Below, in pieces: positions 10,372 to 32,745 of a stretch of 34,571 nucleotides of DNA. This DNA is from Acidobacteriota bacterium (lineage in GTDB: Bacteria > Acidobacteriota > Terriglobia > Bryobacterales > Bryobacteraceae), in assembly GCA_005808865.1 (NCBI GenBank), contig SYKU01000210.1:1-34571 (forward strand), in the 5' to 3' direction. The translations under genes were made by a program, and so were the position numbers. Every line of letters starts with the position of its first letter. Position 1 is the first letter of the stretch. Under the pieces are notes generated by a model. It saw nothing but the letters and a program-made list of their open reading frames with translations, was not told where the DNA came from and did no database searches.

Positions 10372-12351
10372 CTAGAAGCGTGAGGGAAGAACGGGGCGAA
10401 TAGTGGCGACGATTTCGTGGACTGCCCGCAGATCGGATGCAGCCTTCGAGGCAGCGTCGCGCGATCGGAATGGGCCGAGGCGGACGACGTGCCAAGTGCG
10501 TTGCCCGCGGTCGATCTGGTCCGACAGGGTCGCCTCGTAGCCTCTGTTCCGGAGCACTCCTGCCAGGCGCTCAGCGTTGCCCTTTTTCGAAAACGAGCCG
10601 GCCTGTACGGTTAGTTGAAGGTTCGTCGCATTTGCAGCGGCAGACTCAGTTGGATCCGGCGTAACAGCAGAAGCCGGCGCGGGCGTGGAGGATTCTTCCG
10701 TCTGTTGCTCCACTGGCGGAGCAGGGAGCGGGGTGGAATCGACGGGCGGTTCCGGGCTTGGCGATGTACGCGCCAGATCGGGAGGGTTCGGAACGGCGGG
10801 CGTTTCCGGCGCAGGCGGCGCCGACGGAGGCGCTTTCGTGGGCGGTTGCTCGTGTGGCCTGCCCGCAGGGTCTGATTGCGAAAGCGGCACCAGGCTCTCA
10901 AACGGCATGGCTTCCGCCGGCGCTCGTAACGCAACGGACCCGGTGATAGCCATCCCGGGAGTTCTCATCTCCCTGCCCGTGTTCGGTTCGAGAAACTTCT
11001 CCGGGTTCCGCACACCAGGAACCGGCTGCCCAGCCGGGATCGGGCGAACCAGTTCGGGTGTAACGATCACGATCAGCTCCGTGTTCTGCTTTCTCTCCGA
11101 TTTGGACTGGAATAGCTTTCCTAACACTGGAATATCGCCGATAAAAGGGATCTTCTCCAGCGTTTGGCTCAGTCTGTTATCGATCAGGCCCCCTATTGCG
11201 AAGCTCTGACCCTCGCTCAATTCCACCTCGGTGCTCAGTTTTCGTACGCTGAGTGCGGGGACGTTGAAGCCGCTCACAGACAGGCCGTTCGTGAAATCGA
11301 GCGCGCTAACCTCGGGCGCGACCTGCAGGTTGATGGTTCCGCGGGGAGTGATGGTCGGTAGAAACTTGAGGCGCACTCCAAACTCGCGGAATTGAATGGA
11401 GACCGTGGGACCGGTCCCCGCGCTCGCATTTTGTACGGTGGGAAAGGGAAACTCTCCACCGGCCAGAAAGTTGGCTTGCGTCTTGTTCAGAGTCAGTAGA
11501 TTTGGCTCGGCGAGTACCTGAAGCAACCCTTTCACCTGCAGCGCTTCGATCACGGCGCCCAGATTCAGGTCGGGCCTGAAGAAGAAAAGATTGAGCGCGT
11601 CGGAGAGCGTGGCCGTGCCTTTGCCCTGAGTCACCGACAACGCCGGCGGTGAGAACTGTTGCGTGGTGATCGATCCAACGGTGTTGGTGGCGCCGGTACT
11701 AAATATATTGACTCCGAGTTGGGTGCTGACGCTCCGGTCGACGCTCGCGAACTTGACGCGCAGCAGGATCTGCGCTTCGGGTGGAGGCACATCCACGTAC
11801 AGCAGATTCACGAACTTCCCCATTGTGGTAGCGATGGCGGCAGCGCGATTCGCGTCGGTCAGCGTCTTCACCCGCCCGCGGAGGAACACCACCTCTCCCT
11901 CGAAGCTCACATTCACTGTCCCGCCTGGGAGTTCTCTTGATATTTGGCGGGAGATGGCTTCCACCTGCCGCTCCATGGCTTCCACGCGGCTAGCGGCCGC
12001 GAAACGGCTGGGCTGAACGGTAACGTCGTAGAACAGCCTGCTTCCGTCCTCAAGCCAAAGAATAAGGTTGGTAGCTCCGGGCGCCTTTCCGTTAAGCAGT
12101 ACCTCCTTCGGACTGATAGCAGTCGCCTCCGCCACGGCGCTTGAACCGACGGAGACGCGTTGCATGGGCGCGACGCTGCTTATGAGCCGCGACAGCCCAA
12201 CAGTGATGGAAATGGTCTCCGGATCCTCGCGGCTGCTCTGTATCTTCGCAGCAGGGCTCGCCGCACCCGGCAGCTCCGCCCCATAGGCCAAGCAGGGTCC
12301 AAACAAACAGATTGCGGCGGCTGACAGATTCCTTCGCGAACTGGCTCTCAT
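10372..12351 (-). CDS. cpaC: Tad pilus secretin (CpaC/RcpA) with C-terminal SPOR domain
   Basis: 659 residues. A signal peptide (about 1-24) leads into an N-terminal domain with VSVGSSAVAEA and LLNGKAPGATNLILW, the T2SS/T3SS secretin N1-like region of CpaC, then a BON-like segment (VNVSFEGEVVFLRGRV). The secretin channel domain spans about 190-440, with VLAEPNLLTLNKTQANFLAGG and the signature EGQSFAIGGLI plus PFIGDIPVLGKLF. This is the outer-membrane channel of the Flp pilus. Oddly, the protein continues with a Pro-rich linker (about 485-576) and ends in a SPOR-like domain (about 577-659: LTVQAGSFSKKGNAERL, then TWHVVRLGPFRSRDAASKA). SPOR domains bind denuded peptidoglycan. Its ATG overlaps the cpaB stop by four bases. 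It is the last gene of the Tad operon. Confidence 0.93.
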   Translation of the reverse strand: MRASSRRNLSAAAICLFGPCLAYGAELPGAASPAAKIQSSREDPETISITVGLSRLISSVAPMQRVSVGSSAVAEATAISPKEVLLNGKAPGATNLILWLEDGSRLFYDVTVQPSRFAAASRVEAMERQVEAISRQISRELPGGTVNVSFEGEVVFLRGRVKTLTDANRAAAIATTMGKFVNLLYVDVPPPEAQILLRVKFASVDRSVSTQLGVNIFSTGATNTVGSITTQQFSPPALSVTQGKGTATLSDALNLFFFRPDLNLGAVIEALQVKGLLQVLAEPNLLTLNKTQANFLAGGEFPFPTVQNASAGTGPTVSIQFREFGVRLKFLPTITPRGTINLQVAPEVSALDFTNGLSVSGFNVPALSVRKLSTEVELSEGQSFAIGGLIDNRLSQTLEKIPFIGDIPVLGKLFQSKSERKQNTELIVIVTPELVRPIPAGQPVPGVRNPEKFLEPNTGREMRTPGMAITGSVALRAPAEAMPFESLVPLSQSDPAGRPHEQPPTKAPPSAPPAPETPAVPNPPDLARTSPSPEPPVDSTPLPAPPVEQQTEESSTPAPASAVTPDPTESAAANATNLQLTVQAGSFSKKGNAERLAGVLRNRGYEATLSDQIDRGQRTWHVVRLGPFRSRDAASKAASDLRAVHEIVATIRPVLPSRF

Positions 12352-13250
12352 GGCTTTTCCGTGACACGCTTGAATAGAGTTTCAGTGCGCTTGGACCCAT
12401 TGAATACCTCAATCGCATGAGGCATTCGAACGATGTCATCTTGCCCTCCCGCGGGCCCCTTCTCCCTTGGGTGCCTTAAGGGCGGTCTCCTCACGGGCCG
12501 GCCATCCGATGGGCTTGCGGTCTCACCCGGAATCGGCGCCCTCAATTCGCCGTACAGTTCGGCCATCATAGTCCCCGGCGGTCTTGAGATCTCTCGATCC
12601 ATGGGATTCCGTAATACCAATTGGACGTGAGCTTCGCTCGCCAAACTGAGAATTTCGGCCTGGCTTGGCGTGACCATGAGGTTTACGACCTGCACTTGTT
12701 GCGGCTTCCCCTGGTCGTCTTTCTGAAAGTTCGCGCCGGCGGAAAGGACCTGAATATTCTGGAGAAGAGTCCTCGCCTCCGGTCCGCGTGGGACGGTTGT
12801 ACCTGGCCTTACTCCTGTGATCAAGACATCGACACGCATGCCTGGTATCACAAATCCCGCAAGGCCCGCGACCTCGTTCACCCTGACCGCGCACGCTCTC
12901 ATCCCGGGAGGGATCGTCACCGCGAGACCGGCCCCTGAACCTATCGCGGCGACCCGGTCCTCCGTTATCGGCTCCCCTTCGTAGATCTTGGCCACAACAC
13001 CCCGGCCTACAGAGTTGGCCCTTTGCAGAATGGCGCGCTTCGGTATCGGCACGGTCCAACTCGCGGACTTCACGTCAACCTCCCGAATAAGAGTGCCGGT
13101 CTCAAGGTCCCGGGCGGCGACAACAACCTGTACAACTGGCTGGGCCGCAGCCGCGGAGGGTTGACCGCTCACCATCCGGTAAACCAGGTAACTGACGCAA
13201 ACAGCGGCGAGGAGCGCACAGGTGAAGACCATCAACAATCGCCGGTTCAT
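12348..13250 (-). CDS. cpaB: Flp pilus assembly protein CpaB/RcpC
   Basis: 300 residues from the ATG at 13250 (MNRRLLMVFTCALLAAV), which starts an N-terminal membrane anchor; the frame is open further upstream without support. A SAF-type domain follows (VVVAARDLETGTLIREVDV, VPKRAIL-like turn, GEPITEDRV), then the RcpC domain (GMRACAVRVNEVAGLAGFV, IPGMRVDVL). It is thought to gate or stabilise the secretin in the periplasm. The C-terminal 60 residues are Pro/Arg-rich and end with EVFNGSKRTETLFKR. The stop codon overlaps the cpaC start (ATGA). A 144-bp gap without a convincing gene separates it from tadG upstream. Confidence 0.93.
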   Translation of the reverse strand: MNRRLLMVFTCALLAAVCVSYLVYRMVSGQPSAAAAQPVVQVVVAARDLETGTLIREVDVKSASWTVPIPKRAILQRANSVGRGVVAKIYEGEPITEDRVAAIGSGAGLAVTIPPGMRACAVRVNEVAGLAGFVIPGMRVDVLITGVRPGTTVPRGPEARTLLQNIQVLSAGANFQKDDQGKPQQVQVVNLMVTPSQAEILSLASEAHVQLVLRNPMDREISRPPGTMMAELYGELRAPIPGETASPSDGRPVRRPPLRHPREKGPAGGQDDIVRMPHAIEVFNGSKRTETLFKRVTEKP

Positions 13251-13394
13251 ATGGCTTTGCGTGGCAATTCGATGCCCAAACACGGGCACTTTGAAAAGAG
13301 CCACTTATCACACTGGACTGTAAGCTCCGGTGGACATGCGCCCCAACGTTGTACGACTGGCTTGACACTTGGGCTCCATGCGGCATTCGCAGGG

Positions 13395-14840
13395 CTATTT
13401 CACCAGAGCTGCCGATCTGGTATTCAACCACGGCGCTCCAGCAAGATTGAAAGTAACATTAGCCGTGCCGCCGGTGGAAAGCGTGCCGACAACAATCAGC
13501 CCGTTTATCTGAATGGTAGAGTTCCCGGCCAAGCTTAGACCTTGGTAGTGGCTGGCATCGGCGAGCATGGTGGCGGCCGGGTTGGTCAGATAGAGCGATC
13601 CGGTGAGGACAATTCCACCACCACCGCTTAAGGCGTGGGTTTGCGCCACAGCGTTTCGGTCTTCGAAGAACAACAGTCCTTTGTAGACGGACGCGTTGGC
13701 GGATCCGACCAGGTTCGCCGAGCTGTTTGCACCGAAATCGAGTATTCCAATGCCAGTGTTGTAAACAACCATGCCCTGCCCCGTGTCTGGGTCGTCGGCA
13801 AACCCGGTGGACATGACCGAGTGCCCGTTAGCGTTATGCTTGAAGCCGCCACCGTCAATGTAGTAGAGCCCGGGCTTGAATACGGCGGTCTCGTTCTTGA
13901 CGTCGATACCACCCGTGTAGAGACCCGGGGAGTAAAGTTTGCATGCCTTCTTCGGGGCCGCCGGACATCCGCTAACGCCGTCTGCCAGAGCTGTTATCGC
14001 CGGGTGGACCGCAGGCACCGCTGGAGCGGCGACGCCGGCATATGGATCAGTGACCGGTGAAGAGGGCTGACGATAGTGGCCCGTTGAACCCAGGGAAATA
14101 CCCGCTTGTGCTGCCGCAGGTCCCCCAAAAACGCCGAAATCAGCGCCAGTGCCGGCAGAGCAATCACCGGAATCGGCGGGCCCTGCGTGGCTCAAATCCG
14201 CTTCGGCGGACGTCGCAGCCGTTGCGCTGCTGGAATTTATCTGAATACTCCTGTTCGTGCCGCCGCAAACCCTCAGCGAACCGGCTCCAGTAGAGATCGC
14301 GTCCGCGAGCGTCGGGTGAGTTACCAGTAGTGGGATAGGGCCAACAGTACTGGCGATACCTCCATTGGCTTTTGCCGTAACGCTGGACGTCGCCGGTCCC
14401 AGAAAGCGGATCAAGCCTGTTTGACGCGTCCGCTGCACGGTGACCATGATTGCCGGTACGAAGTCGGAAGAAAGCGAGGCGCCTGCCACACTGACCGGGA
14501 AGCTCACGGTAACGGTATCGGCGGCGGTCGAGCCGAATCCGTTGTTTCTCACGTAGACACAGGGAGTTCGGCTATCGGTGGTAGAGCAGGTGAAGGAAGC
14601 GGTCGGACTCCCGGTTCCGAACGGGTAGGGGGAGGTGGCGTTGGTCCCATTCATGATGCTCATCATTCCGGCGAGCGCGCCTGCATCCGCCGCCGTCTGA
14701 GCCATCTGCCAGTGTGCGTACATTTGCGCGCCGTCAATCGCAAGCCCGAGGGCCCCCATCAGGAAGATACTCATGGCGACAACCAGGACGGTGACCATCT
14801 GCCCCGCCTGTCGATCTCTTCTTCTGGCGGATGCGATCAA
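13395..14840 (-). CDS. TadG-like pilus-associated protein with long beta-rich C-terminal region
   Basis: 481 residues. The N-terminus has the TadG/TadE-like anchor: RQAGQMVTVLVVAMSIFLMG, then QMAQTAADAGALAGM, typical of Flp pilus-assembly TadG N-terminal domains. The start is a TTG at 14840 that overlaps the TGA of the tadE gene above it (TTGA), with AAGGGG about ten bases upstream. The large C-terminal part (about 150-481) is Gly/Ser/Ala-rich, with repeated short strands (SPGLYTGGIDV, PGLYYIDGGG, GGGGIVLTGSLYLTN, NGLIVVGTLS). By eye this resembles a beta-solenoid, though I cannot assign a family. It is probably a minor surface or periplasmic component of the pilus. Confidence 0.82.
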   Translation of the reverse strand: MIASARRRDRQAGQMVTVLVVAMSIFLMGALGLAIDGAQMYAHWQMAQTAADAGALAGMMSIMNGTNATSPYPFGTGSPTASFTCSTTDSRTPCVYVRNNGFGSTAADTVTVSFPVSVAGASLSSDFVPAIMVTVQRTRQTGLIRFLGPATSSVTAKANGGIASTVGPIPLLVTHPTLADAISTGAGSLRVCGGTNRSIQINSSSATAATSAEADLSHAGPADSGDCSAGTGADFGVFGGPAAAQAGISLGSTGHYRQPSSPVTDPYAGVAAPAVPAVHPAITALADGVSGCPAAPKKACKLYSPGLYTGGIDVKNETAVFKPGLYYIDGGGFKHNANGHSVMSTGFADDPDTGQGMVVYNTGIGILDFGANSSANLVGSANASVYKGLLFFEDRNAVAQTHALSGGGGIVLTGSLYLTNPAATMLADASHYQGLSLAGNSTIQINGLIVVGTLSTGGTANVTFNLAGAPWLNTRSAALVK

Positions 14841-15280
14841 AAGACAATGACCCCTTGCGCCTTACTCCCGAGGCGTACGTTCAGTGAAAAATATCTCAAG
14901 AAGCGATCGTACGGGTACACAACGGTTACATCGACGGTTTTGCCTGGAGCGTTTGATGCCTCAGGATAAGCCACGGCTATTTCCAGGTTGTTCGTATCCA
15001 GCAGTCCGGTGCCTGCAAAGCTTTTGATCACGGTCGAAACCTCAGGGGGATTATTCGCCGGACCGCTTGGGCCATCAACGCCCGAACCGGTCCGGCTGCT
15101 GCCGTGAAGGGTTGCGTAACGGACGCCGGCGCCCGCGGCGTTAGCCACAGCCACATAGACGAGTAACATTCGACACATTTCGGCCACACCCAGGAGCATC
15201 ACGAGCGTTAGAAGGGCAACCAGGCTGAACTCCACGAGAGCTTGGCCGCTTACCGGCCCGAAACGCTTCCCGGCCTTCAT
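14837..15280 (-). CDS. tadE: TadE-like minor pseudopilin
   Basis: 147 residues. A short basic N-terminus is followed by SGQALVEFSLVALLTLVMLL (residues 11-30), the TadE signature with conserved Glu17, and ANAAGAGVRYAT after the membrane segment. TadE proteins are prepilin-peptidase substrates that act as minor pseudopilins in Flp pilus assembly. The C-terminal domain (residues 60-147) is periplasmic. The ATG overlaps the stop of the PilZ-TadE gene (ATGA), and its own TGA overlaps the TTG of tadG, so three pseudopilin-like genes are translationally chained. Confidence 0.9.
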   Translation of the reverse strand: MKAGKRFGPVSGQALVEFSLVALLTLVMLLGVAEMCRMLLVYVAVANAAGAGVRYATLHGSSRTGSGVDGPSGPANNPPEVSTVIKSFAGTGLLDTNNLEIAVAYPEASNAPGKTVDVTVVYPYDRFLRYFSLNVRLGSKAQGVIVF

Positions 15281-16164
15281 TGCAGCATTCTCATCACGCT
15301 CTTCCGATGAATGGCGGTTGGCGGAAGGGTGGCGTGGATTCCGAGGCTGGGAAACTCAAACAAGGGAATGTAGGGTTGGTATGTATAGGTCACATCAATG
15401 GCTGCCAGAACATAAGACAGAGGCTCCGGATCCGCCGGCGTCAGACCCGTTCCCGTTCCCGTACATGCAATCACGGAATTCCTGTTCGTGCAGACGCGGA
15501 CTGCCAGGGTGGCCTTGTTCAGGAGAGACGAAATGTTATTGGCGACAACCGCGGATATCTGGGCGTGCGTCGCGGGCGATGGAGAGCCAATCGTGGCGCC
15601 CGCCCTGGTACCGTACTCAGCTCCGGCGCGTGCCGCATTCGCGACGGTAATCCAGGCGAAGAAGAATCCCCCAAAATTGACAATGTTTACAACTAGAAGA
15701 AACAGCAGCGGGACGAGCAACGCGAGCTCGACAAGCGCCTGGCCGCTTTCCGGCGCATCGAGCCGGGTTCTTTTGCGCTCATTCGGTATCGCCTTAACGA
15801 AATCGAGCAGGTTCGTCTTCTCCCCAGGCGTTGTGAACACAAACTCAACCCCCACGCCGTCGTCGCCATGCCGCACAACGCGGCACGGAATGCATGCGGA
15901 CCGGTCCGGCGGACCGCTCGCTTCCTCCGAATTCGCAATCCCCCGCCGCCGTAGCATCAGTGTGACGATCTCCCCGATGTCCCAGCGTTGCCGAGTACAA
16001 ATATAAGCGCCTGTCTGGCTGATGTCCCGCACCCCGTCGCCCTTCGGAGCGGAGCCGTCCCAATAGTAAACAAGCGACGAGGGGTCGGCGGCCCTCGCCG
16101 CACGCCGCGGGTCCTTCGGATTTGCGCCCCGCAGCTTGACAAGACCGCTCAGCAAACGAATCAA
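15277..16164 (-). CDS. PilZ domain fused to TadE-like pseudopilin
   Basis: 295 residues from a TTG at 16164 that overlaps the TGA of the DUF192 gene (TTGA) and has GGAGG four bases upstream; a GTG at 16227 would need a 67-bp overlap. Residues about 17-115 form a PilZ-like domain with both c-di-GMP motifs: RRAAR (Arg20-xxx-Arg24) and DISQTG (Asp47-x-Ser49-x-x-Gly52), then CRVVRHGDDGVGVEFVF. Residues 139-295 are TadE-like: ESGQALVELALLVPLLFLLV, then ANAARAGAEYGT. A cytoplasmic c-di-GMP receptor joined to a pseudopilin-type membrane segment is an unusual arrangement. Prepilin cleavage near the GQALVE region would release the PilZ part. It lies between DUF192 and tadE in the Tad operon. Confidence 0.85.
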   Translation of the reverse strand: MIRLLSGLVKLRGANPKDPRRAARAADPSSLVYYWDGSAPKGDGVRDISQTGAYICTRQRWDIGEIVTLMLRRRGIANSEEASGPPDRSACIPCRVVRHGDDGVGVEFVFTTPGEKTNLLDFVKAIPNERKRTRLDAPESGQALVELALLVPLLFLLVVNIVNFGGFFFAWITVANAARAGAEYGTRAGATIGSPSPATHAQISAVVANNISSLLNKATLAVRVCTNRNSVIACTGTGTGLTPADPEPLSYVLAAIDVTYTYQPYIPLFEFPSLGIHATLPPTAIHRKSVMRMLQ

Positions 16165-16637
16165 GCTCCCTCCTGAACTCCATATCTCATGAGGAGACAC
16201 CGTCTTTGGGCCTGAGCCCGATGCCACGTTTCCATGTCTTCCGCTGCGCAGATCAGTAATTCATCGTTAAGCTGAGTGTGAGAGTAATGGATTGCGCGGA
16301 GTGGAAGCTCAAGAAAGCTGACGCAGCCAGGCCTGACCGGCAAGACACGGAAGGGCTGAATATTCTCCACAAGTCCGGTCACGCGATTCATGCCGTCCAG
16401 GCAGATTAAGTCGATCGGAAACAACGTACTGACCGTACGAATGCGTGGCAAGGGAGTCATCCACAGGCCGTCACCGGACTTCAGTCTTTCGCAACTCAGC
16501 AACCCCCTGAGACGCCTCAGAAGTGTATCCGCCGGCGTGACTGACATTCCCAGGAAGGACTCGCGTGTGCAATTGAAAGCGCAGAGCGCTCGCTTCGGCT
16601 TCCTTCTTTCTCCCAATGCTATTGGCTCCACTTGCAC
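16161..16637 (-). CDS. DUF192-like protein encoded within the Tad operon
   Basis: 158 residues from a GTG at 16637 with a strong GGAGG five bases upstream. The frame is open to a TTG at 16754, which overlaps the stop of the small upstream gene and would give a longer, atypical N-terminus. The core resembles DUF192: TPADTLLRRLRGLLS, SGDGLWMTP, RTVSTLFPIDLICLD, VLPVRPGCVSFLELP. DUF192 proteins have no settled function. There is no signal peptide from this start, so it should be cytoplasmic. In my recollection acidobacterial Tad loci often carry such a gene. Its stop overlaps the PilZ-TadE start, which ties the two products together. Confidence 0.72.
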   Translation of the reverse strand: MQVEPIALGERRKPKRALCAFNCTRESFLGMSVTPADTLLRRLRGLLSCERLKSGDGLWMTPLPRIRTVSTLFPIDLICLDGMNRVTGLVENIQPFRVLPVRPGCVSFLELPLRAIHYSHTQLNDELLICAAEDMETWHRAQAQRRCLLMRYGVQEGA

Positions 16638-16750
16638 GGATTCCTCCGCTCCGCTGCTTTGCTCAACCGTCCCTACTAACCAGCATGGGACCCGCCGGGG
16701 CGCGAAGCAGCCGCTTCCGTGCCGCAACCCGCCCCGCCGCTCCCGAAGAT

Positions 16751-16846
16751 TCAAGACGCTTTCTTGCGCCGGCGCTGGATTAGCACACCCAAAAGCATGG
16801 CAAAACAGATACCCGCGATCATCTGAATCATAGTTGTATCAGTCAT
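16751..16846 (-). CDS. 31-residue single-pass membrane peptide
   Basis: A small gene starting at the ATG at 16846 behind a very strong ribosome site (AAAAGGAGAAG, five bases or fewer from the ATG). It encodes 31 residues: MTDTTMIQMIAG, a hydrophobic stretch ending GVLIQ, and the basic tail RRRKKAS. This is a short N-out, basic-in type membrane segment. It sits 45 bases after tadC and before the DUF192 gene. No family is recognised. It could be a small subunit of the TadB/TadC platform, or a leader that couples translation. Confidence 0.6.
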   Translation of the reverse strand: MTDTTMIQMIAGICFAMLLGVLIQRRRKKAS

Positions 16847-16891: not shown

Positions 16892-17803
16892 TTAATTCAA
16901 GAACTTCGCGAAACCTTCGAACATCACGATCATTGAAGGGCCAAGCGTAACTACGAACAACGAGGGGAAAATGCACAAGACCAGCGGAAACACCAATTTC
17001 ACGGTGGTCTGTGCCGCCTTCTCTTCCGCGTCCTGGCGACGGCGTACGCGCAACGATTCGGAATGAGCCCGTAGAGTCTTTCCGACACTGCTGCCAAACT
17101 TATCGGCCTGAATCAGAATTACTGTAAGAGAGCGAATTGTTTCGACGTCGGTTCTTTCGGCAAGAGTCTTCCAGGCATCGGCGCGCGGACGTCCGGCCCG
17201 TTGCTCCAGGCATACGAGGTTCAGTTCGTCGGAGATGTCCGGCTGACTCAGGCGGAGCTCTTCAGCGGCGCGCAACACCGCTTTGTCCAGACTCAACCCC
17301 GCTTCAATGCAGATCACAATCAGATCCAGTGCTTCGGGCAGTCCGAGGGCAAGTTCCATTTTTCTCCTCGAGATGAGACGGTCCAGGCAAAAATCAGGGA
17401 GGAGAAAGCCAAGCCCTAGAACGACGGGGTACACAAACATCGGGCCTATCGTATAGACCCGTGTAATTGTGGCCAATAGACACAGCAGCAATGGGACCAG
17501 GACTTTTGCGCCGTAGAAAATATTCACGTACGCCTGTTCGCGATAGCCTGCTCGAATGAGCCGCTTCTGGAGCGCCGATACTTCCTGTGGGCTCCGGGGA
17601 AGTATTTTCTGAAATGGCTCAACAAGTTTCTCGATTCTTGCTCCAGGCTGCTCTACCGAGATACTGCGCAGGAGCCGGTCGTTCGAACGGTTCAGAACTG
17701 CATTCAGCAGTTTGTCGAGCGTGTCCTGGCGATAAAACACCAGAAGGCCCACGCTCGAGATCAGCAGAAAGGCCGCTATGAATGCGAGAAGAGCAGGTGC
17801 CAT
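16892..17803 (-). CDS. tadC: Tad pilus inner-membrane platform protein TadC
   Basis: 303 residues with an N-terminal membrane segment (about 5-23), two central membrane segments (about 97-135) and a C-terminal pair (about 268-298). The type II secretion F domain lies at about 150-270: GLPEALDLIVICIEAGLSLD, LERRAG-like EQRAGRPRADAW, and VETIRSLTVILIQADKFGSS. With TadB it forms the inner-membrane platform that the TadA ATPase works on. The gene starts ten bases after tadB, in the usual TadB-TadC order. Confidence 0.94.
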   Translation of the reverse strand: MAPALLAFIAAFLLISSVGLLVFYRQDTLDKLLNAVLNRSNDRLLRSISVEQPGARIEKLVEPFQKILPRSPQEVSALQKRLIRAGYREQAYVNIFYGAKVLVPLLLCLLATITRVYTIGPMFVYPVVLGLGFLLPDFCLDRLISRRKMELALGLPEALDLIVICIEAGLSLDKAVLRAAEELRLSQPDISDELNLVCLEQRAGRPRADAWKTLAERTDVETIRSLTVILIQADKFGSSVGKTLRAHSESLRVRRRQDAEEKAAQTTVKLVFPLVLCIFPSLFVVTLGPSMIVMFEGFAKFLN

Positions 17804-17813
17804 AAAGCGACTC

Positions 17814-18776
17814 TCAAACTCGAATTTGGACGATCTTCCGTATGGCGAAAGACCCGACGGCTTCCATAACGATTGCGGCTCGCAGGATTTTCCGGCCGAT
17901 CGGCCGCGTCCATAGAACGCTGATTCCTTCCGGGTGAACGGCGTACATAGCCAGCCCGAGCACCACTGGAAGAAGAGAGAGCACCCAACCGGTTGCCCGT
18001 CCCTGGGCCGTGTGGACCATGATCTGCTTCTTCATTCGAAACCGCTGACGGGTCGTGACAGCTACCTTTTCCAACACTTCGGCAAGATTTCCCCCGCTTT
18101 CCTTCTGTATCAAGACGGCTGCGACGAAAATACGGACGTCCTGAACGGGGACTCTGCCGGCGAGATTCAACATGGCGGTCCGCAGGTCAATACCAAAGGT
18201 TTGTTCGTCGAAGCACTTACGGAATTCCCGCCCAACCGGCCCGGCTACCTCCTGGCCCACCGAGTGAATCGCCGTGATCAGACCGTGCCCGACCCGAAGA
18301 GCGCTGACCATCATGTCGAGAGCCTCGGGCAGTTTTTGCTCGAACTCGAGAAATCGCTTTGCGCGTTTCCGCAGAACATAGGCAAGCGGCAGCGGCAGGG
18401 CAGCCGCCGATAGGGCGAGTGAGGTCAGCGCCTCTTGTGTCCGCAGGTACAGGACACAGCCTGCTCCAGCCCACGCCGCGAGCGACACCATGACTAGAGT
18501 TCCGGGCGACGATTTCACATCCGCCTGGTAGAGAAGCATCTGAAATGCCGCGACGTTTATCTTGTTCAACCACGGGTTCATCCAGGCGATCCGGCTGACG
18601 CGTTCCTCTCGTCGAATGTCGGCGGGCAGTTGTTCGTCTGACCTCGGTGCGCTCTGAGCCTCCAGAGCGGAAAGCCTTGCTTGCACCTTCTTCGAACGGC
18701 GGTCGGTTTTCGCCGTGATTACTAAAACGGAGATGGTGAAGACGCCCAGGAAAACTGCCGCGATCGTAAGCCACAT
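17814..18776 (-). CDS. tadB: Tad pilus inner-membrane platform protein TadB
   Basis: 320 residues from the ATG at 18776 ([19 protein letters not shown]), preceded by GGGGAGG; the frame extends upstream over the tadA end without support. An N-terminal membrane segment is followed by a cytoplasmic linker, two membrane segments (about 100-145), the T2SSF domain ([49 protein letters not shown]) and C-terminal membrane segments. It is the partner of TadC. It follows tadA by 22 bases. Confidence 0.94.
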
Positions 18777-18798
18777 ATTTCTGCCTCCCCCAGCCGGA

Positions 18799-20073
18799 TT
18801 ACCTCTCCGAGCGTTCAAAAAGCTCACCCGGCAGATTGATGCCGGCCACGCGTAATCGTTCAAGGAAATGCGGCCGGATGCCGCTCGGTTGGAATGATCC
18901 GATGACCTTCCCGTCGGGCCCAATGCCTTTCCTCTCGAAGTTAAAGAGATCATGCATCGTGATAACGTTTTCCTCGAGGCCGGTGATCTCGGATATATTG
19001 ACCACCTTCCTCGATCCGTCCGTCATACGCGAGACCTGGACGATGACGCTGATGGCGGAGGAAATCTGCTGGCGAACCGAACGCTCAGGCAGGTTTACGC
19101 TTGCCATGGCCACCATGGACTCCAGCCTGGAGATGGCGTCCCGCGCCGTGTTGGCGTGGATGGTCGCCATTGAGCCTTCGTGTCCTGTGTTCATGGCTTG
19201 CAGCATGTCAAATGCTTCGTCACCGCGAACTTCGCCGATAATGATCCGGTCCGGCCGCATTCGTAGACTGTTGATCAAAAGCTGTCTTTGACGAACCGCG
19301 CCCAGCCCCTCCACGTTAGGCGGCCGCGTTTCCAAACGCACCACATTCTCCTGCTGCAGTTGCAGTTCGGCGGCGTCCTCAATCGTCACCAGCCGCTCGG
19401 TTTCAGGAATGAAGCCGGAGAGGATGTTCAGGAACGTGGTTTTTCCGGCTCCGGTGCCACCGGAGATCAGAATGCTGATGCGTGCCTTGACGGCAGCCGC
19501 CAGGATCTGCAGCATTCCGGGAGAGATGCTGTTCAGCTTTACCAGCGACTCCGCCGCGACGGGCCCGCTCCCGAAACGGCGGATGGACATGCACGGTCCG
19601 TCAAGCGCCAGCGGCGGTATGATTGCGTTGACGCGAGAGCCGTCCGGCAGCCTGGCATCAACCATGGGCGACAATTCATCAACTCTTCTTCCCACCCTGG
19701 ACACGATGCGATCGATCACCTGCATCAAATGACGGTCGTCGCGAAACATCGCGGACGTCTTCCGAAGCATGCCTCTCGATTCCACGTAAACCGTACGCGG
19801 ATTGTTGACGAGAATATCGGAGATCGTCGGGTCCTTCAAGAGCGTTTCGAGCGGGCCCAAGCCGAAGACTTCATCGAGCACTTCGGACTCAACCCTTTCC
19901 TTTTCGCCGGCGCTCAGCGGCACCCTTTCGCTGACGACGATTTCCTGAACCATGGTTGCTACGGCCAGCCGGGCCCTTCCGCTGTCGACCGAGGCCAATT
20001 TCTCAAGATCAATCTTGGAGATCAGCGTCTTGTGCAGCTTTGCCTTAAAATCTTCGAAATCGAGAACTTCCAT
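18799..20073 (-). CDS. tadA: Tad pilus assembly/retraction ATPase TadA (CpaF)
   Basis: 424 residues from the ATG at 20073 with GGGAGG seven bases upstream; the longer open frame overlaps tadZ and is Arg-rich, unlike the family. All VirB11/CpaF motor boxes are present: Walker A GGTGAGKT (205-212), the Asp box TIEDAAEL (230-237), Walker B IIIGEVRG (277-284) and the His box [11 protein letters not shown] (298-308). The N-terminal domain (about 40-190) includes [20 protein letters not shown]. This hexameric ATPase powers Flp pilus extension and, in Caulobacter, retraction. It is encoded directly after tadZ/cpaE. Confidence 0.97.
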
Positions 20074-20119
20074 TTCAGGACCTCCCATCCTTCCGTGCCG
20101 GCGGGAATTGCTTAAGCAA

Positions 20120-21334
20120 CTAGCCGAAAAAGCTGAACTTCTTCTTGATCTTCTTCTCCGGTTCGACAGCCTTGCCGCAAGCTGCCCGGGCCATCTGGAA
20201 TAAGACTCTCGATACCGGCGAATCCTCCTTGGCGAGCGGGTCGCCGCTGTTCTGAGCCCGGCGGACGGCGACATAGTCGTTCGGAACACTCCAGTTCACG
20301 GGCTGAGCGAGCGCGTTTCTGCTGCTGTTCTGATCGATCTCGACGGCTCGGGAATCGAACCGGTTCAGGATCACTTCCAAACGGCGATTCCCGAACTTCG
20401 CCGTAACGTATGCAGTTATGCGCTTGGCGTTCCGCAGCGCCGGAATGTTCACTTCGGTCACAAGATAAATCGTTTCCGCCAGATCGAATGCGGCATCCTG
20501 CATCTCTCCAGCGCCGTTACCGGCATCTACCACCACATATTCAAATTGCTCTCGCAGAAGACTCAGCACCTTGGCCGCATTCTTTCCCCGGGGGTCGAAA
20601 GACTGGTAAACGTCCGGCGCCGCCAGGACCGTCAGGCCGCTATCGTGCCGGATCAATAGCGTGGAGAGGAAATCCGAGTCAAGGCGGTCTGTGTGGGCCA
20701 TGGCGTCCATGATCGAAAAGGTTGGACTAACGTTGAGATTTAGAGCCACTTCGCCAAGCGCAAGGTCCAGATCCACAATCACAACCTTCCCCGCGGATTC
20801 TTTGGTGAGAGCCACGGCGAAATTGGTGGCGATCATGGTAACCCCGGCTCCGCCTTTGGCTCCGATAAAGGTGACCAGCTTACCTGGGGCCTTCTTATGC
20901 TTAGGAGTCTGGCAGCGAGCCGCCGCCCTTGCAAGGGCCTCGTCAATTGTTCCCGGGAGCACGGGTTCGATCAGAAAATCGCGTGCGCCGGCGCGCATCG
21001 AACGGACCAACAAGGCCGCGTCGTTCTTTCCGCAATAGGCCATCACGGTAGCGGAAACGTTTTGGCAAATGGCCTCGATCAACTCGAGCGCCCGCTCAGC
21101 ATTGGTGTCCAGTTCGACGACGACTACGTCGAAATCAGACAGCTTCAATTCCGAGAGAGCCTGGGGACTCGGGTACTCGGCAACGGTGCGGGAGAGGGTC
21201 GCGAGCGGGCCGTCGAGCAGTTTGCAGAGCGTCTGCCGCAATTGCGGATTGGGCGCGATGAGGACAACAGATAGAGCGCCGCCCGGAGTGGCGGGATGTT
21301 CTAGCTTCGTCGAATTGTCAAGAAGGTTGGGCAT
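20120..21334 (-). CDS. tadZ: TadZ/CpaE localisation factor: pseudo-receiver plus ParA/MinD-like ATPase
   Basis: 404 residues. Residues about 21-140 form a response-regulator-like domain ([15 protein letters not shown], then DVVVVELD, then [13 protein letters not shown]). The usual phospho-acceptor position carries Glu74 instead of Asp, so it is probably a pseudo-receiver. From about 152 comes a ParA/MinD-like domain with a deviant P-loop, GAKGGAGVT (158-166), in which the usual Lys before Thr is Val165. This is common in CpaE/TadZ proteins, which bind ATP weakly and mark the pole for pilus assembly. A later ATPase block is [13 protein letters not shown] (184-196). The C-terminus is Lys-rich ([12 protein letters not shown]). 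It lies between the prepilin peptidase and tadA. Confidence 0.92.
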
Positions 21335-21352: not shown

Positions 21353-21862
21353 TCAAAGCGATAGAAAAGAAAATAAGGTTCCGATGGCAATGGCCGGCGC
21401 ATAGGGCATGGCACGCGCCCCGGGTGTGTCGAGACGGGGAACCGGATGCCGGATGCCTTTGTTCCACCTCCAGATGAGATCCCCCGCGCCATCGAACGAG
21501 CTCTTGAGGGAACCGTGGCTCGCAGCCCAGATCAGCGCCATTACGCCTCCGGCGAGACCGGTCGCTACCAGGGCCGTGCCCAACTGAGCCGCTCCAACCC
21601 AGGCGCCCACCGCCGCGCACAGCTTCAAGTCGCCCATACCCATCCCGCGAAGCCAGCACGGAATTCCGGTTACCAGCACGGCGAGACCTATGCCGGCAGC
21701 GCTCTGTCCAAGCCCTGCCAGTCCCAACGTTGCGGTCGAGACAATGATCCCGGCAAGCAGATAGGGAATGACCAGCCAGTTCGGTATCCGGCGGCTGCGG
21801 ATGTCGATGACTGTCGCGATTGCGATCAACAGGAGTATTGGCCACCAAGTGATTGAGCGCAT
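21353..21862 (-). CDS. cpaA: A24-type prepilin peptidase of the Tad system (TadV/CpaA)
   Basis: 169 residues from the ATG at 21862 (MRSITWWPILLLIAIATVID); a TTG at 21901 would reach into the flp end. It is an integral membrane aspartic protease with about five to six membrane segments. The catalytic Asp residues are visible in VIDIRSRRIPN (Asp20) and GMGMGDLKL (Asp78). It lacks the Cys-rich N-methyltransferase domain of PilD enzymes, as expected for TadV/CpaA. It should cleave the Flp pilin and the TadE-like pseudopilins. It starts 35 bases after the first flp gene. Confidence 0.92.
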   Translation of the reverse strand: MRSITWWPILLLIAIATVIDIRSRRIPNWLVIPYLLAGIIVSTATLGLAGLGQSAAGIGLAVLVTGIPCWLRGMGMGDLKLCAAVGAWVGAAQLGTALVATGLAGGVMALIWAASHGSLKSSFDGAGDLIWRWNKGIRHPVPRLDTPGARAMPYAPAIAIGTLFSFLSL

Positions 21863-21897
21863 GTGTTGCCCGTTGGGACTGGAGCGGATGCGACCTG

Positions 21898-22104
21898 TCA
21901 ACTCGTATACGTTTGCATCTTCGTGCCGATGCTGGTGAAGCCGGCGTTTATTTGCCCAGCGATGCCACTCATGCCTGCTGTGGCTGCCAGAGCGATCAGG
22001 GCTACGACAAGTGCGTACTCGATCAAATCCTGTCCGCTCTCGGACGCGAATAGATCTCTCAGGCCGTGAGCCTTAACGCACGTTTTCAGATAAAGGTCTT
22101 TCAT
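21898..22104 (-). CDS. flp: Flp-type pilin 1
   Basis: 68 residues from the ATG at 22104, preceded by AAGGAG nine bases upstream; the longer open frame is not supported. The Flp signature is SESGQDLIEYALVVALIALA, where the peptidase cleaves after a Gly just before QDLIEY with the conserved Glu at +5, followed by a hydrophobic helix and a short C-terminus FTSIGTKMQTYTS. It is the major structural subunit of the pilus and the first gene of the 11.7-kb Tad operon. A sigma-54-like element lies 28 bases before the ATG. It is a paralogue of the second flp gene at 24006; 45 of 68 residues are identical by my hand count. Confidence 0.95.
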   Translation of the reverse strand: MKDLYLKTCVKAHGLRDLFASESGQDLIEYALVVALIALAATAGMSGIAGQINAGFTSIGTKMQTYTS

Positions 22105-22131
22105 ACCCGCGTTCTCCTTGAGCGCGTATCT

Positions 22132-22147
22132 TGCATGTCGAATGCCG
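22132..22147 (-). promoter_or_regulatory. Sigma-54-like -24/-12 promoter of flp1
   Basis: Read on the minus strand the element is CGGCATTCGACATGCA: GG, ten bases, GC, with GGCA at -24 and TGCA at -12. The consensus is TGGCACGNNNNTTGCA. The GC lies 28 bases before the flp1 ATG, which would put the transcript start just before the AAGGAG ribosome site. The element before flp2 shares GGC-N3-CGAC-N-TGC and nearly the same distance. GG-N10-GC alone is common by chance in GC-rich DNA, so the agreement between the sites is the main support. Confidence 0.55.
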
Positions 22148-22222
22148 TTTGGAGAAGCGAGCGTAAATTGAACGGCTTGCACGATACAGGCGTGTCAATC
22201 CGGAGAATATTTCAGCCGGAGT

Positions 22223-31923: not shown

Positions 31924-32745
31924 CTACACCAGCGCCTCATACCACTCCATCCACGCACTGCCGAAAAAAATCACCCCCAGTGCGCCGATGCCGAGAAACG
32001 TCCCGAACGGCAGGTAGTATTCCCTGCCCTTGCGCGCGATTGCGATGTACGCAAGCCCGACCAGAGATCCGACGGTCGATCCCACGGCCAAGGCCAGCAG
32101 CGTCTCGCGGAAGCCCAGGAACGAGCCGAGCATCGCGAGCATTTTGACGTCGCCGAATCCAAGCCCTTCTTTATGACGCAGTTTCTCGAAGAGCCACCCG
32201 CCAGACCACAGGATCCCGGCCGGCACGGCTGCGCCTAGCGCGGCCTCCGCGAGCGAAGCCGTTTGCCTGCCTGCGTCCAGTCCGGCTAGTGACAATATTG
32301 CCTGCGCTGTCCCATCCCGCACCGGAACCAGCCACGCGAATGCGAACCCGGCCGCCATGCCGCCCAAGGTCATCTCATCGGGCAGAATGCGGGATTCGAG
32401 GTCGGCGACGATCAGACCTACTACCAGCGCGCACAATAGCGCCGCCTTTGCGGCAATCAGCGTGGGTCCCCACAGGATTACGCAGGCGGCGAATAACGTT
32501 CCCGTGAAAACTTCAACCAGAGGATACCGCAGCGGAATTAGCGCCTTGCAATTCCGGCAGCGGCCTCCGAGGAGCAGGTAACTCAACAGCGGAATATTGT
32601 CGAACCAGGCAATCCCTTGCTCGCATCCGGGGCAGTAGGAGCGTGGCCGCACCACCGAAAGATCAAGCGGCAAGCGATAAATACAAACGTTCAGAAAGCT
32701 GCCGGTCAACAGTCCAAAGAGTCCGGCGAGCAGCTCCTCGGTCAT
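31924..32745 (-). CDS. pilD: Prepilin peptidase/N-methyltransferase, PilD type
   Basis: 273 residues with the full PilD architecture. The N-terminal N-methylation domain has GSFLNVCIYRLP and two Cys pairs (CPGC near 38-41 and CRNC near 63-66). The A24 protease part has the catalytic Asp residues in VADLESRILPDE and GLGFGDVKML. About eight membrane segments are visible. It should process type IV pilin or type II secretion pseudopilin precursors and differs from the short TadV-type enzyme at 21353. The start overlaps the GT4 stop by four bases (ATGA), placing it last in a coupled cluster. Confidence 0.95.
   Translation of the reverse strand: MTEELLAGLFGLLTGSFLNVCIYRLPLDLSVVRPRSYCPGCEQGIAWFDNIPLLSYLLLGGRCRNCKALIPLRYPLVEVFTGTLFAACVILWGPTLIAAKAALLCALVVGLIVADLESRILPDEMTLGGMAAGFAFAWLVPVRDGTAQAILSLAGLDAGRQTASLAEAALGAAVPAGILWSGGWLFEKLRHKEGLGFGDVKMLAMLGSFLGFRETLLALAVGSTVGSLVGLAYIAIARKGREYYLPFGTFLGIGALGVIFFGSAWMEWYEALV

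Follow-up and report, generated by a model that had tools for sequence, protein, structure and literature searches.

Why should a minor pilus protein be headed by what appears to be a c-di-GMP sensor, on the part normally removed before assembly? The question is raised by a 34,571-nucleotide stretch of an Acidobacteriota genome (Bryobacteraceae; contig SYKU01000210.1), analysed in full and called here the window, in which a PilZ domain precedes a TadE-like pseudopilin. In some soil Acidobacteria, such an arrangement would tie the second messenger closely to the pilus. We examine the fusion gene, its operon and its relatives, and weigh what the PilZ domain may act on.

Architecture of the fusion

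The fusion gene occupies positions 15277..16164 of the minus strand, running from a TTG at 16164 to a stop codon at 15277, and encodes 295 amino acids. An AGGAGG ribosome site lies 4 nt 5' of the TTG, which aligns with the start codon of a same-genus relative, whereas an alternative in-frame GTG at 16227 has a weak ribosome site at best; translation thus begins upstream of the PilZ part, as a sequence-only reading of the window had supposed. The gene overlaps its neighbors by 4 nt at both ends, with the end of a DUF192 gene (TTGA) and with the start of a second TadE-like gene (ATGA), suggesting translational coupling to both.

The PilZ domain (PF07238; 15793..16107, minus strand) spans residues 20-124 with an E-value of 9.4e-10 and 39.2 bits against a Pfam cut-off of 22.5. 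Both c-di-GMP motifs are intact and exactly where they had been placed, RxxxR at residues 20-24 (R20-xxx-R24) and DxSxxG at 47-52 (D47-I-S49-Q-T-G52). An AlphaFold model built on 18 homologous rows (mean pLDDT 77) arranges the chain as PilZ barrel, C-terminal helix, long pilin helix and pilin head, with the strands of a six-stranded barrel within residues 30-108, a helix at 113-125, a low-confidence linker at 129-140 and the pilin helix at 140-187. A sequence search with the PilZ part against solved structures returned nothing meaningful. By fold comparison with the PDB, the modeled PilZ part matches the PilZ domains of Alg44, YcgR, MrkH and BcsA with Z 11.2-11.7 over 97-108 residues, the best matches including 9b8v, 5kgo, 4rt1 and 5y6g; the PilB-binding PilZ of the Xanthomonas type IV pilus is a weaker match (Z 5.6-6.9). 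Since the best matches, c-di-GMP-bound structures among them, are canonical c-di-GMP-binding PilZ domains, the window PilZ resembles the ligand-binding class, and its profile, fold and motifs mark it as a candidate c-di-GMP receptor. The messenger could be made by GGDEF proteins, of which there are at least four in the window genome.

Behind the PilZ domain, in the same frame, lies a TadE segment (PF07811; residues 141-182, E 1.3e-10, 41.7 bits against a Pfam cut-off of 22.9), whose class III signal sequence and pilin helix map to 15619..15744 of the minus strand. Its pseudopilin processing motif, G141-QALVE, stands ahead of the hydrophobic helix (140-187), with G141 at -1 and E146 at +5. Both residues are invariant in 18 of 18 aligned TadE rows, fused or not, and conservation extends through the entire TadE head domain. 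The predicted cleavage site therefore follows the PilZ part, as had been proposed, and cleavage after G141 would probably fall to the peptidase of the operon. With domain search and structure prediction in agreement, the PilZ-TadE fusion itself is confirmed.

The leader ahead of the cleavage site measures 128-172 residues across the fusions and about 140 in the window. In the window, about 14 low-confidence residues, 7% identical to those of the closest relative, link PilZ to the cleavage site. In three other fusions (L072, L074, L075), only 3-4 residues separate the two and the PilZ C-terminal helix doubles as the basic tail of the leader.

A complete Tad operon around the fusion

The fusion is part of a complete tad/flp cluster on the minus strand. 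The cluster begins with a probable Flp major pilin bearing a G-QDLIEYALV motif (21898..22182; PF04964, E 8.8e-7, slightly below the curated cut-off) and a CpaA/TadV-type A24 prepilin peptidase (21353..21901; PF01478, E 4.2e-17). These are followed by a CpaE/TadZ-like protein (20120..21334; CbiA and a weak Response_reg match), the CpaF/TadA ATPase (18799..20289; T2SSE, E 4.6e-61) and the TadB-like (17814..18953) and TadC-like (16892..17803) platform proteins, both T2SSF. Next come the DUF192 gene (16161..16754; PF02643), whose own start codon is uncertain, the fusion, the second TadE-like pseudopilin (14837..15280; PF07811), a TadG-like minor pilin (13395..14840; PF13400 Tad), CpaB/RcpC (12348..13304; PF16976, SAF) and the CpaC/RcpA secretin (10372..12351; Secretin, T2SS-T3SS_pil_N). 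The secretin carries a peptidoglycan-binding SPOR domain at its C-terminus. A second, full-length prepilin peptidase (A24_N and A24) is encoded at 31924-32745, about 10 kb upstream of the operon.

Distribution and conservation of the fusion

About 18 of the Terriglobia genomes sampled, from two families, carry the fusion. In a search of relatives' genomes covering the window's lineage, the 257 genomes of its order yielded 11 full-length fusions (the window included) and one divergent one, in the window's family; in a second family of the same class, six genomes have the fusion. Named records identify the first family as Bryobacteraceae; the second is probably Acidobacteriaceae. Among the named carriers are Candidatus Sulfopaludibacter and Acidobacteriaceae bacterium KBS 96. 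Across the phylum, full-length fusions were found only in the window's class; a scan of genome contigs gave six fusion or near-fusion loci, of which those with a named phylum all belong to Acidobacteriota, and a plasmid collection gave no match. A full-length homologue in the same genus is 66% identical and, together with the presence of the fusion in two families, excludes a chance joining.

An artefact, whether a frameshift, a wrong start or an assembly error joining two separate genes, might be suspected in a draft genome of 493 contigs. This explanation is hardly credible and was rejected: independent genomes carry the same fusion, near-complete ones included (G010 in two contigs, G300 in one), and the ribosome site stands directly before the start at 16164. 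The PilZ part also evolves with a dN/dS of 0.10-0.35 in four pairs, indicating that the domain is maintained by purifying selection.

By a simple pattern test, 10 of 15 TadE-fused loci and every DUF192 fusion retain both RxxxR and (D/N)x(S/T)xxG. L123 has lost DxSxxG, as have two Acidobacteriaceae fusions, L074 and L075, which read REISSDK there and keep the fusion; the first Arg of RxxxR is Lys in L033 and L038. One of the four pairs under purifying selection lacks DxSxxG, and fusions of this kind show that the domain can persist even where c-di-GMP binding is not evident.

PilZ changes partners within one operon slot

Is PilZ bound to TadE, or to the operon? To sample loci without bias, the DUF192 neighbor alone served as query; 25 of the best 30 loci fell in the two families, and in 22 of these 25, picked without reference to PilZ, a PilZ domain follows TadC-DUF192. 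The 25 comprise 12 TadE fusions, six separate PilZ genes, three DUF192 fusions, one TadG fusion and three loci that lack PilZ apart from a remnant in one of them (G677). PilZ was not found in the remaining five of the 30 loci, from other families.

The same variety is seen among the relatives at large. In L041 and L035, PilZ and TadE are encoded by two genes that overlap; L035 comes from a genome of another family of the same order (G037), where the overlap is ATGA. In the second family, PilZ sits on the C-terminus of DUF192 in nine loci (L079, L081, L083, L126, L127, L139, L140, L143, L144), and in a single genome it is fused N-terminally to a TadG-like minor pilin (L129:9476-11185; Pfam PilZ, Tad and Tad_C). 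On both pilin partners, TadE and TadG, PilZ is thus on the leader side. In L120, a close relative, most of PilZ is lost and TadE is kept. On a quick tree of CpaF-TadB-TadC, in which gains are indistinguishable from losses, the state of the slot changes at least nine times, and five changes are required for the TadE-fusion label, of which well-supported branches force four.

PilZ is therefore a regular component of this Tad operon, and its partner tracks gene order, the fused partner being simply the adjoining gene. Compared with one another, the relatives argue against an essential link to TadE as such.

Several observations concern the slot more broadly. The DUF192 gene is likewise a fixed member of the operon, PilZ-fused in many relatives, and many relatives have a second DUF192 gene after the secretin. 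We know of no function for this family, which gains a likely role beside the pilus machine. In one genome (G572, L123:7368-10825), a tandem duplication has produced the order DUF192-PilZ-DUF192-PilZ-TadE, in which the PilZ domains contain a large insert, and three genomes (G744, G754, G605) hold several paralogous PilZ copies of the subfamily, many in long frames and some with DUF192.

What does the PilZ domain act on?

We favor, at about even odds, the reading that PilZ is a dedicated c-di-GMP receptor of the Tad machine, carried here as a cleavable TadE leader and acting on the common machinery. PilZ would form an oversized cytoplasmic leader on the minor pseudopilin, which would insert through its hydrophobic helix; the A24 peptidase of the operon would then cleave behind G141 and release the PilZ part beside the assembly platform. 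Once bound to c-di-GMP, PilZ would most likely act on CpaF/TadB/TadC or on initiation at the TadE/TadG tip, and the fusion would serve one-to-one production and co-localization more than a private switch on TadE. The target is probably the common machine because the fused partner is a mere neighboring gene and TadE persists without PilZ. Counting against this reading, the fusion persists in several lineages, the domain is kept in fusions without DxSxxG, and the 3-4-residue spacing in some Acidobacteriaceae would not be needed for a merely convenient fusion.

That spacing speaks instead for control in cis, the mechanism put forward by the sequence-only reading: while joined to the pre-pseudopilin, PilZ in its c-di-GMP-bound or free state would block or expose the cleavage site, or retain TadE, so that the messenger times maturation of a tip pseudopilin. 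The parts of that proposal hold, namely PilZ with both motifs, an in-frame TadE and a peptidase in the operon; the holding or releasing of the pseudopilin by c-di-GMP is the conjectural step. The cleavage site does follow the PilZ C-terminal helix, and the fusion has been retained across long divergence. In Myxococcus, moreover, TadE/F/G-type minor pilins form a tip that primes Tad pilus polymerization (PMC12075869), so gating minor pilins would gate the pilus, and under either model it is pilus initiation that comes under control. Set against this are the poorly conserved, low-confidence linker of the window, the loss of the motif from retained fusions in L074/L075, the survival of TadE after PilZ loss in L120, and the occurrence of PilZ in the same slot as a separate gene, on DUF192 or on TadG. 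We therefore regard gating in cis as a tentative idea. Gated processing has its strongest support in fusions of the L072/L074 type, in which the PilZ helix nearly reaches the cleavage site. Its strictest form seems unlikely to us: a single-use switch in which the pro-domain, through its ligand state, would determine whether the peptidase can cut and hence whether a Tad pilus can start, the switch being removed by its own processing.

Alternatively, the fusion may never be cut, the TadE helix serving only to fix a c-di-GMP receptor in the inner membrane, at the base of the pilus. PilZ domains are common on membrane proteins, among them BcsA and Alg44, both top structural matches and both membrane proteins of polysaccharide synthesis, and to our knowledge no folded leader of this size is a prepilin-peptidase substrate. 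A plain anchor is nevertheless improbable: every fusion has G-1 and E+5, the head domain is conserved throughout and two peptidase genes lie within the window.

The whole-machine reading makes PilZ, as a standing tad-operon receptor, a concrete candidate for the missing c-di-GMP effector in Acidobacteria, and the question of the receptor can now be tested with a handful of purified parts.

Comparison with known systems

In the literature searched, with subscription journals outside its reach, no paper described PilZ fused to a pseudopilin. Alg44, YcgR, MrkH and BcsA share the fold and both motifs with the window PilZ, but none is fused to a prepilin. The TadE and TadF pseudopilins, TadV substrates according to Tomich et al. 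(2006, as cited in PMC5513912), have the processing motif, pilin helix and tad operon position in common with the window fusion; they carry a short leader peptide, in contrast to the long leaders with a folded domain seen here. Control of a type IV filament by c-di-GMP at the machine, as we propose, is known from the Xanthomonas type IVa PilZ-PilB-FimX system and from Vibrio MshE, where it runs through the assembly ATPase (PMC6581867, PMC11656802). The closest precedent comes from the Zetaproteobacteria CP strains, in which PilZ genes with RxxxR and (D/N)x(S/A)xxG motifs likewise lie beside tad loci and were suggested to couple c-di-GMP to Flp pili (PMC5513912). The neighborhood and the proposed link are thus already published; there, PilZ is a free-standing gene, whereas here it stands on the leader side of TadE.
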